A stretch of 64,000 nt of DNA from Leptolyngbya sp. FACHB-261 (GTDB lineage: Bacteria > Cyanobacteriota > Cyanobacteriia > FACHB-261). The notes below the pieces were generated by a model. That model did no database searches, was not told the origin of the DNA, and saw nothing but the letters and a program-made list of their open reading frames with translations. Location: assembly GCF_014696065.1 (NCBI RefSeq), contig NZ_JACJPL010000027.1, positions 868,001-932,000 of the forward strand, in the 5' to 3' direction. Both the position numbers and the translations under genes were made by a program. Shown here one piece after another: positions 58,953-62,028 of the stretch (positions are counted from its first letter, which is position 1; every line of letters begins with the position of its first letter).

Positions 58953-59924
58953 ATGTCCGCTCAGCGCCAGAGTCATCATGATCATGACCATCATCACGGG
59001 CATGGCCATCACCACGGGCACGGCCATCATGGGCATGGGCATGGAGTGGCTGATTATAGTCGGGCTTTCGCGATTGGCACTGCGCTCAATTTAGGGTTTG
59101 TTGTCGCTGAGGCGAGTTATGGCTATGTGGCGCACTCGCTGGCTTTGGTGGCTGATGCGGGTCATAACTTGAGCGATGTTTTGGGGCTGTTGTTAGCTTG
59201 GGGCGCAAGTTCTTTAGCTCGCCAACCGCCAACTCACCGTTATACCTATGGGCTGCGGAGTTCTTCAATTTTGGCGGCTTTGATTAATGCTGCGGTGCTC
59301 TTGTTAGCGATGGGGGCGATTGCTTGGGAGGCGGTTCGACGCTTTCAGGAGCCGGGACCAGTGGCCGGGACGACGGTGATTGGGGTGGCAATCGTAGGCA
59401 TTGCGATTAATACAGCTACGGCCTTGATGTTTGTGTCGGGGCGCAAGCATGATTTGAATTTGCGTGCCGCGTTTATGCATATGGCTGCGGATGCGCTGGT
59501 GTCGGTTGGGGTAGTTTTGGCTGGCCTTGCTATTTTGCTGACGGGTTGGCTGTGGTTTGACCCGGTGGTGAGTTTGATTATTGTTGCGGTGGTTGTGTTT
59601 GGCACCTGGCAGTTGCTCAAAGATTCAATCAATCTGGCTTTGGATGCGGTGCCTGGGGGAATTGAGTTAATGGCTGTGCGGACTTATCTTGAGCAGCGTC
59701 CGGGGGTGTGCCAGGTTCACGACTTGCATGTTTGGGCCATGAGCACGACGGAGACGGCGCTCACAGCTCATTTAGTGATGCCGGACGGACATCCGAGTGA
59801 TGCTTTTTTGATGCAGGTTTGCAGGGAGCTTCAAGACCAGTTCGGGATTGGGCATTCGACGCTGCAAGTAGAGACGGGGGATGAACAACATCCTTGTGTT
59901 TTAGAGCCTGACCATATGGTTTAG
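58953..59924 (+). CDS. CDF family cation efflux protein (CzcD/ZitB-like)
   Basis: 323 residues from ATG 58953, behind AAAGG. The N-terminus holds 15 His in about 24 residues (residues 8-31), a probable Zn2+-binding tail. Six transmembrane helices follow, with metal site H-x-x-x-D in DAGHNLSD (TM2) and HMAADAL (TM5). The C-terminal cytoplasmic domain (VCQVHDLHVWAMSTTETALTAHLVM) is complete. CDF proteins export Zn2+, Co2+ or Cd2+ in exchange for protons. Confidence 0.93.
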   Translation: MSAQRQSHHDHDHHHGHGHHHGHGHHGHGHGVADYSRAFAIGTALNLGFVVAEASYGYVAHSLALVADAGHNLSDVLGLLLAWGASSLARQPPTHRYTYGLRSSSILAALINAAVLLLAMGAIAWEAVRRFQEPGPVAGTTVIGVAIVGIAINTATALMFVSGRKHDLNLRAAFMHMAADALVSVGVVLAGLAILLTGWLWFDPVVSLIIVAVVVFGTWQLLKDSINLALDAVPGGIELMAVRTYLEQRPGVCQVHDLHVWAMSTTETALTAHLVMPDGHPSDAFLMQVCRELQDQFGIGHSTLQVETGDEQHPCVLEPDHMV

Positions 59925-60019
59925 GGCAAGAGTATTTCGAGTAGAGTTTCAACCTCTGTTCTGTTCTCTGAAGTTTGTGAGAACGTAGAGTCAATGTCTC
60001 AAGAATTCGAAGCTAGCTT

Positions 60020-60817
60020 ATGAGCACAACGTCCTTTCAGTACAAGGCGACTTTTGGGGTTACGGGAAAGATTCAATACAAGCCAACTCAAGGTGAGGTC
60101 GGTCCTGAGGACACCATAGAGCTGTCTGCTGACGAGAACCTTAGCTATAAAATTCTTGCCAAACTCTCTTCCCGAGATGGCACATCTGTAATTCAATCAA
60201 TGATTCTTGAAGAAAATCCTATCGGACCGCAAGACCCAGTTGATTTTGGCAAATACGCAGAAGAAATACTCAGTCAGCATCTCAACAGAATAAAGTTTGT
60301 GTCTGGTGAAAACTCAGCTACTTTGACTAATGGAGTAGTAAAAGACCATTTAGGAAAGCAACACTCAGTAGCAATAGGCGGGCTAAAAATGGGCGGACAT
60401 TCCGCCAGCGTTATGGATAAACCTCGGTGCGAGCAAGCATTTAGAGAGAAGTCCAACAAAAACCTTGACGAATATATTGACAGACACCTTTCTATTAGCA
60501 AAATAACCGACCCAGTTCTAAAGCTTATAAGTCTATTCGCACTGTGTGAGTTCGTTGTTGGCAGAGACCGTGAACAAGCGGAAAATATCGCACTTTTAAT
60601 TGAGTCTGACTCTCTACCTAGTGCTGCTAGAAATTTAGTCGCACACGGGAGAGTCAAGAGAACTAAAACGATGGAGACTTTGAATGAAACATTTAATACT
60701 CCTGCCGCAAAGTTTCACGAGTTCAGTAGAGGAAATAATAAGCACATGAAACTAGTTATAGATTGTGGTGAGGAGTTATCCTCCACAATCAAAAACCACA
60801 TTTACAGCCTGCTCTAG
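60020..60817 (+). CDS. Candidate HEPN-motif protein, unrecognised family
   Basis: 265 residues, ATG start, no clear ribosome site. I do not recognise the family. The N-terminal 125 residues are beta-rich (FQYKATFGVTGKIQY, LSYKILAKLSSRDGTSVIQS). The C-terminal half is helical and contains SAARNLVAHGR, with R204-N205-x-x-x-H209. RNxxxH is the catalytic motif of HEPN ribonucleases in toxin-antitoxin, Abi and CRISPR systems, and the surrounding helices (PVLKLISLFALCEFVVGRDRE before, TMETLNETF after) fit a HEPN four-helix bundle. The DNA is clearly AT-richer than its neighbours, with AGA/ATA codons, suggesting transfer. No antitoxin-like nucleotidyltransferase is adjacent. Confidence 0.6.
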   Translation: MSTTSFQYKATFGVTGKIQYKPTQGEVGPEDTIELSADENLSYKILAKLSSRDGTSVIQSMILEENPIGPQDPVDFGKYAEEILSQHLNRIKFVSGENSATLTNGVVKDHLGKQHSVAIGGLKMGGHSASVMDKPRCEQAFREKSNKNLDEYIDRHLSISKITDPVLKLISLFALCEFVVGRDREQAENIALLIESDSLPSAARNLVAHGRVKRTKTMETLNETFNTPAAKFHEFSRGNNKHMKLVIDCGEELSSTIKNHIYSLL

Positions 60818-60925
60818 AGATTTTATCCAAGAGAGCTTCACAACACCAGCCACTTACCGCGACCTACTTGACGGGATTACAACTGCCCTGCTATGTTTCT
60901 CAACTAAGTAGCGGACCCTTGCGTC

Positions 60926-60952
60926 CCCCAGAGCCTTAAACAAACTCTGGGG
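60926..60952 (+). terminator. Hairpin downstream of the HEPN-like gene
   Basis: CCCCAGAG (60926-60933) pairs with CTCTGGGG (60945-60952), 8 bp, 11-nt loop, no T-tract. The 309 bp around it (60818-61126) hold no accepted gene; a second stem at 61059-61091 (GGGGCA...TGCCCC) lies just upstream of the next gene. Confidence 0.4.
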
Positions 60953-61126
60953 AACTAACCCCCAAGGTTGTTAACAGCAACCTGGCGGCTAGTGGGAAGT
61001 TTAACACCCGCTCTAGTTGGCCCTTTGTCCGAGGGGTGGGACAGGTTTGCTACGGGTCGGGGCATTTCATCGCCTTTAGATGATTTGCCCCACTCCTTCA
61101 CCTTACAAATTTTGCTCAGAACCCCC

Positions 61127-61507
61127 ATGCATTTGACCCAGGTTCTTCAGCCACAGCTTTGTATTTCTTTGAGCCAAATCGCCAAACACTTAGGCATTCC
61201 GGAGTGGATGATTTGTCGTTATGCCCACTGGCCCCATGTCCTGTTCGTGCATCGCAGCGACCGAGGCGGGCAATTTATCAGCTACCGCAAGTTTGCGGAG
61301 TGGGTAGAAGCCTGCGCCAAAAGCATCAAGTCCTGCACTGACCTGCGCCTGCTCGATTGGCTAGGACAGGTTCTCAAAGCCGAGTGCCAACGCTTCGCCT
61401 ACCCCAAAGCAGTGGTTGACGGCTGGCGGCAACTCTGGCTCCAGCGACGGCAGCAGTTGAAAGTCTTACAGGACAACCCAACCAGCTCGCTTCTTTCAGC
61501 CCGGTAG
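61127..61507 (+). CDS. Small HTH-like DNA-binding protein (candidate)
   Basis: 126 residues from ATG 61127; the frame is open upstream to a TTG at 60968, but that part crosses a hairpin and is unconvincing. CISLSQIAKHLGIPEWMICRYAHWPHVLFVHRS has a helix-turn-helix pattern, followed by FISYRKFAEWVEACAK and a Trp/Arg-rich basic C-terminal helix (VVDGWRQLWLQRRQQLKVLQ). I do not recognise a named family. It ends 15 bp before the 21-bp repeat array, so binding there is a plausible but unproven role. Confidence 0.55.
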   Translation: MHLTQVLQPQLCISLSQIAKHLGIPEWMICRYAHWPHVLFVHRSDRGGQFISYRKFAEWVEACAKSIKSCTDLRLLDWLGQVLKAECQRFAYPKAVVDGWRQLWLQRRQQLKVLQDNPTSSLLSAR

Positions 61508-61522
61508 CAGACCTGTGAAGGT

Positions 61523-61678
61523 GGCAAACGTTACGGCATTACTGGCAAACATTACCGCGTTAGTGGCAAACGCTACGACATTACTGGCAAACGTTACGAC
61601 GTTAGTGGCAAATCCCATCAATTACTGGCAAACGCTACCGCATTAGTGGCAAACGTTACCGCGTTGGTAGGCAATTTA
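61523..61678. repeat. Seven 21-bp tandem repeats (iteron-like), plus a partial eighth
   Basis: Units start at 61523, 61544, 61565, 61586, 61607, 61627 and 61648, each beginning GGCAAA; a degenerate copy starts at 61670. Typical unit: GGCAAACGTTAC, then a variable middle and ATTACT or GTTAGT. Endings alternate ACT/AGT, so a 42-bp dimer was probably amplified. The fifth unit is 20 bp and diverged. Length (two helical turns), number and position between two small DNA-binding-like genes resemble plasmid or phage iterons. Confidence 0.85.
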
Positions 61679-61713
61679 TTCATTTACCCCATTCTCAACC
61701 CCTGTTACCCACC

Positions 61714-62028
61714 ATGAGTCTCCAACACCGCCTCGCCCTGTGGGACCACCTCACCCGCCGCCTAAAACTCTCTGCCCACTTGAAATTGGTCTTGTTGACC
61801 ATCGCCAACTACACCGAGCCCAACGGTTCCCCCTCTCGTGTTCCACTGACCCTTTTGAGCCGAGATTGCAGCCTGGAGCCCGGAGAGTTAAGCCTTCTGC
61901 TGCTCAGCCTCGAAGGTCGCAACTTGGTAGACAAAGTCCTCGTGCAGTCTCACGGCAGCCCAACCGTTGCGCTCTATAGCCTGTCGTCCCACCTTCTACG
62001 AGCGGCAATTTCCACCAAGCAGCCATGA
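61714..62028 (+). CDS. Small winged-helix (HTH_36-like) protein
   Basis: 104 residues, ATG start. KLSAHLKLVLLTIANYTEPNGSPSRVPLTLLSRDCSLEPGELSLLLLSLEGRNLVDKVLV has the pattern of HTH_36/replication-protein winged helices: a first helix ending in LLTIANY, a Gly/Ser-Pro turn, a recognition helix, then LLLSLEGRNLVDK. Such domains are found in phage and plasmid replication proteins and in small regulators. It begins 36 bp after the repeat array, which could be its operator. Family assignment is tentative. Confidence 0.6.
   Translation: MSLQHRLALWDHLTRRLKLSAHLKLVLLTIANYTEPNGSPSRVPLTLLSRDCSLEPGELSLLLLSLEGRNLVDKVLVQSHGSPTVALYSLSSHLLRAAISTKQP

Follow-up and report, generated by a model that had tools for sequence, protein, structure and literature searches.

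The locus

The window, a stretch of 64,000 nucleotides from the cyanobacterium Leptolyngbya sp. FACHB-261, contains a tandem array of 21-bp units that lies between the stop of one small gene, hth1, and the start of another, wh2. A candidate structured leader RNA lies upstream of hth1 (Table 1). All seven full units start with GGCAAA, and their ends follow the order ACT/AGT/ACT/AGT/ACT/AGT/GGT. TRF reports the array with a period of 21 (7.3 copies, score 145) and with a period of 42 (3.3 copies, score 180), against a top score of 55 when the 64-kb window was shuffled 40 times with dinucleotides preserved. The unit coordinates, TRF and the shuffles confirm the original prediction of seven GGCAAA units, one of 20 bp and the others of 21 bp, between two small genes. 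The two-helical-turn spacing claimed for them is likewise borne out, as a property common to dozens of such arrays. The GC skew flips sign near 60.5 kb of the window (stretch 59500-61500), where gene direction is unchanged.

Table 1. Coordinates of the array, its units and the adjacent features in the window
Feature	Position	Strand	Description
Candidate structured leader RNA	60905..61038	+	Upstream of hth1; three-way junction and 3' hairpin
hth1	61127..61507	+	126-aa protein of a dispersed paralogue family; predicted helix/three-strand/helical fold
Tandem array	61523..61681	none	21-bp unit GGCAAACGYTACGRCRTTAST; seven full units and a partial eighth; non-coding
Unit 1	61523-61543		21 bp
Unit 2	61544-61564		21 bp
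Unit 3	61565-61585		21 bp
Unit 4	61586-61606		21 bp
Unit 5	61607-61626		20 bp
Unit 6	61627-61647		21 bp
Unit 7	61648-61668		Followed by a single A
Unit 8 (partial)	from 61670		GGCAATTTATTC
wh2	61714..62028	+	104-aa predicted winged-helix protein (AlphaFold, Foldseek, weak profile scores)

The hth1-wh2 gene pair and its leader RNA

One neighbour of the array had been described as winged-helix-like, and wh2 is so predicted with good confidence: its AlphaFold model has a mean pLDDT of 89, Foldseek matches it to wHTH structures in the PDB, e.g. the MarR family (E about 1e-3), and its profile scores are weak and limited to HTH_36 and DprA_WH. The structure model of hth1 is of fair confidence, with no significant match of the fold in the PDB and no Pfam or NCBIfam family. 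Beyond the weak wHTH scores, we found no known family for hth1, wh2 or the GGVRK proteins described below.

There are about 44 copies of wh2 in the 6.9-Mb genome, and hth1 lies directly upstream of at least 33 of them. Between close copies, dN/dS is 0.04-0.22 for hth1 and 0.04-0.37 for wh2, and because of these values we judge both to be real genes under purifying selection. The DNA common to the copies extends from 200-300 bp before hth1 through the end of wh2, and no neighbouring gene is common to them. Of 389 other cyanobacterial genomes, seven have hth1 relatives, with one to three copies each, and one has a relative of wh2, itself a weak match; no convincing wh2 was found adjoining the hth1 homologues of other cyanobacteria. 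The hth1 relatives of Trichocoleus sp. FACHB-40 (L065, L066) adjoin a small gene, ‘LHPWCIIR’, as well as an HTH gene of the XRE type.

The class A (close) copies have the leader RNA in common. A consensus fold predicted from 15 copies, with compensatory changes in 4 of 48 pairs and a small covariation term, is suggestive of a structured RNA. The covariance model (R1) scores 90.5 bits on the window leader (C27:928905-929038) and finds 17 strong copies in this genome; the leader lies upstream of hth1 in the window, L011 and L025-L037. Of 193 other genomes, four have weak matches, and two of these matches lie no more than 1.5 kb from a GGVRK gene. No Rfam family matches the leader.

Arrays in the gene pair and dispersal of their units

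Twelve of the 15 class A copies carry an array with a period of about 21 bp, or a multiple of it, between hth1 and wh2, one of them (L031) at 62 bp. The remaining three have a gap of 48-70 bp with no array, and the gap is also without an array in the more distant hth1-bearing copies. The units vary from copy to copy, and include GGCAAACGTTACGACATTAGT, ACTCCGTTAACGGACCCATTC and CGATGTCGCAGCTCAGAACAC among others.

The window unit recurs at three unlinked loci of the same genome (C1:203.9 kb, C27:10.9 kb and C31:786.9 kb), at the first two of which there is no hth1-wh2 pair; neither hth1 nor wh2 is present at the L009 and L010 arrays. Other unit families are likewise dispersed in the genome, as seen in a census of 0.86 Mb plus targeted loci. 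Among the window, L011 and L010, units are as alike between loci (identity 0.83-0.85) as within a locus (0.84-0.85), and the genes flanking the array differ between the window and L011 by a dS of about 1.0-1.1. One unit pool is common to unlinked loci. The likeness of units across such diverged loci reflects either a shared ligand that holds the unit or a recent spread of the array. Adjacent to the array at C1:203.9 kb (L009 8193-8429), which is without the gene pair, lies an XRE gene similar to that of Trichocoleus.

It had been suggested that the array may be the origin or centromere of a plasmid or satellite element that has integrated; on an iteron reading, hth1 or wh2 would be the initiator or partition protein. 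The array does consist of direct repeats in the 17-22-bp range and in helical phase, and the two-turn spacing, the predicted winged-helix neighbour and the local change in the sign of the GC skew near 60.5 kb all fit an origin. The presence of the window unit at three further loci, the dispersal of other unit families and the roughly 44 copies of wh2 argue against it. No Rep of a known family adjoins the array, given the weak HTH_36/DprA_WH scores of wh2 and the lack of any family for hth1, and inspection of the ORFs at 58-64 kb of the window revealed no Rep, ParA or integrase. The array lies in a 938-kb contig and not in a plasmid or a recognizable integrated replicon. Neither hth1 nor wh2 has a match among the plasmids of PLSDB, wh2 has none among the INPHARED phages and hth1 none among the IMG/VR viral contigs. 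The flanking genes form a chromosomal family of 33-44 copies. An origin or centromere is therefore highly improbable.

GGVRK genes as the most constant partner

Some 160 bp downstream of the array at C27:10.9 kb is a gene for a 125-aa protein with YEMAGGVRKSERAR near its C-terminus. This protein belongs to GGVRK, an uncharacterised family of small basic proteins with the C-terminus YEMAGGVRKSERxR. The genome has 12 GGVRK genes; eight have a 21-bp-type array in the 400 bp before the gene, and four have none detected in the upstream zone. Some unit types are common to GGVRK and wh2 loci: the window type is found at L182, the L047 type at L183 and the L041 type at L187.

A search of 144 other cyanobacterial genomes found GGVRK in 25. 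At 20 of the 28 external loci read, an array with a period of 21, 42 or 63 lies at -500 to -120; none was detected in the upstream zone of the other eight. Overall, the arrays precede the GGVRK start codon by roughly 150-500 bp. As a control within the same loci, we looked further upstream, where arrays occur at 2/28, and in the gene and downstream of it, where they occur at 0/28. These counts make a general array-forming tendency an unlikely reason for the fixed position of the arrays.

The units drift with the GGVRK protein. Unit similarity tracks protein identity (Mantel rho 0.215, p 0.003): unit matches amount to 14/21 where the proteins are at least 65% identical, and the rest are near the chance level of about 9.5. 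At low protein identity the units are unrelated and the period is still 21. Since the units drift with GGVRK while the period stays, position and period outlast sequence, which suggests that the spacing by two helix turns, and not the exact sequence, is what matters.

Other arrays in the genome

Another dispersed family of 21/42-bp arrays is found at C31:201828, C26:214206, C26:180703, C13:147283 and C1:347944 (L175, L176, L179, L180). The C31:201828-type unit contains the palindromes GAGTACTC and GGCGACCGCC, its open frame reads AEIAFEYSEITSA and the members have a common 5' flank. No GGVRK, hth1 or wh2 neighbour was found in the stretches read around the C31:201.8 kb array and its relatives. 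At C1:245.48 kb (L174 3483-3777), some 190 bp separate an L030-type array from a downstream gene containing MGRKSQTFVGQALAMAANYP, which is possibly another array-linked family. One unit type makes up the arrays at C31:390017-390199 and C31:647263-647395, each about 200 bp upstream of one of two related genes. Their products start MAS(G/D)G..WQRKLAFLEQ, and the first runs into a segment, FISYSHKDDELR, that is TIR-like by eye. A direct repeat, GTCGCAAAAACAGCAAATCCCTTTGAGGGATTGAAAC, with a 72-bp period at C31:479-2032 (L111) resembles a CRISPR array.

Coding and RNA-level readings

The arrays are non-coding. As 21 bp equal seven codons, a unit can be read as a heptad such as VANVTAL, AVVTSIQ or LVTSLIN, and the array could be, or have been, part of a protein-coding gene; one frame is open in most arrays, and certain frames are alike between species. 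Open frames are no commoner than expected, with 35 observed in the arrays and 33.6 expected from permuted columns. A codon-phase test of the differences between units, carried out on 38 arrays, gave no signal (combined p 0.63), with no excess at third positions. The frame is lost at units of 20 and 22 bp in the window, L011, L009 and L034. An intact frame with synonymous-type variation, as would mark a heptad-repeat protein gene, was not found, and we rejected this candidate on the codon-phase and open-frame tests; a coding origin is very unlikely. The same two tests support the earlier preference for a role as DNA rather than protein. One argument offered for it, that the units differ at non-synonymous sites, does not serve by itself, as the unit differences have no codon-phase pattern either way.

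Alternatively, the array may act at the RNA level, as a transcribed leader or spacer that works by RNA structure or as a sponge for small RNAs or proteins. The window array lies inside a probable hth1-wh2 transcript, and three external arrays fold better than their shuffles (z -2.8, -4.3 and -5.4). However, in this comparison, which covers the arrays other than L187 and L200, further correctly placed arrays fold at chance and the window array folds worse than its shuffles (z +1.4); the orientation of units relative to the gene also varies, as between the window and L182. With fold z scores so inconsistent among arrays, a consistent RNA structure is not supported, and we consider an RNA-level element improbable.

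A proposed phased protein-binding platform

On balance, and with moderate confidence, we favour reading the array as a helically phased platform of multiple protein-binding sites, itself non-coding, that regulates nearby genes. From the layout, we infer that each unit would bind a protein and that transcription would be regulated by this binding. With about two turns between successive units, every unit would face the same side of the helix, and the array could serve as an operator or nucleoprotein scaffold controlling the neighbouring promoter or promoters. One protein may sit on each unit, for which GGVRK and a paired HTH protein are candidates. The products of hth1 and wh2 may be users or competitors of the arrays in this lineage. 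The same unit families are also present, in this genome, within a dispersed unit consisting of leader RNA, hth1, array and wh2, of which the window holds one copy.

An operator, one of several functions originally suggested, comes closest to this explanation, and repeated sites in helical phase do occur at a constant position ahead of a gene. The suggestion that the flanking genes encode the ligand does not hold in general, because arrays also occur in cyanobacteria with no detected hth1 or wh2. GGVRK is the most parsimonious ligand, since its genes carry arrays where hth1 and wh2 are undetected. No dyad common to the units was found across arrays (combined p 0.17), so that the units do not point to a classical dimer operator in every array type. 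The arrays with no GGVRK, hth1 or wh2 neighbour in the stretch read, and the GGVRK loci with no array detected in the upstream zone, also speak against the platform.

The main rival to a regulatory platform is a neutral or selfish minisatellite, which would arise by slippage in tolerant intergenic DNA, be copied by gene conversion or together with hth1-wh2, and have no function. That tandem arrays are present so regularly could indeed come from a tendency to replication slippage rather than from selection. The unit families are dispersed both with and without neighbour genes, and there is a precedent in the 23-nt minisatellite of BrickBuilt, a dispersed MITE of Porphyromonas gingivalis (PMC4596501). 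Neutral spread accounts for this dispersal, but not for a fixed position before one gene family across genera despite drift. The period is also held at 21 and its multiples, whereas that of neutral minisatellites should vary. We therefore regard this rival as unlikely, though a more serious contender than the other readings.

Comparison with known systems

Helically phased repeats are known from origins, centromeres and operators. In layout, the array would work like phased operators. Iteron plasmids carry helically phased direct repeats of 17-22 bp beside a winged-helix gene, and the array resembles them in its phased direct repeats and its predicted winged-helix neighbour; it differs in its many chromosomal copies and in having neither a plasmid nor a Rep family, nor a demonstrated A+T-rich or DnaA-box origin. 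Heterocystous cyanobacteria have intergenic tandem repeats, STRR with a 7-bp unit and LTRR with a unit of about 37 bp, whereas the arrays described here have a 21-bp unit, a locus-specific sequence and a gene-linked position.

One of the closest likenesses is BrickBuilt, with about 19 intergenic copies of imperfect 23-nt tandem units and promoter activity in its flanks (PMC4596501). Both are dispersed, intergenic, non-coding tandem arrays of imperfect units of about two turns. BrickBuilt, however, has one unit family, one species and MITE ends, and the present arrays have many families and a fixed place before one gene family across cyanobacterial genera. The TAACTGA direct repeats of marine Beggiatoaceae are reported to be abundant, intergenic and of proposed regulatory function (PMC4679880); their unit is a constant 7 bp, in contrast to the 21-bp period and drifting unit found here.

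In the literature searched, which omits most subscription journals, we found no description of 21-bp arrays in cyanobacteria, nor of any class in which period and place are constant across genera and the unit turns over with an adjacent protein.

Significance

The arrays represent a large, apparently undescribed class of non-coding elements. More tentatively, they may belong to a regulatory or chromatin-like system that extends across cyanobacteria. Phase and position would be kept in it and sequence would drift with the locus-specific GGVRK protein, so that each genome would hold many orthogonal protein-array pairs; in this lineage, the arrays would have been co-opted by a two-gene unit with a structured leader RNA of its own in more than 30 copies. 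The arrays connect the GGVRK family with the hth1-wh2 expansion and with a leader RNA absent from Rfam, none of which is annotated. Should each array be read by its own GGVRK protein, or by a partner, these loci would provide orthogonal DNA-protein pairs for studying the evolution of specificity and for use as regulatory parts.
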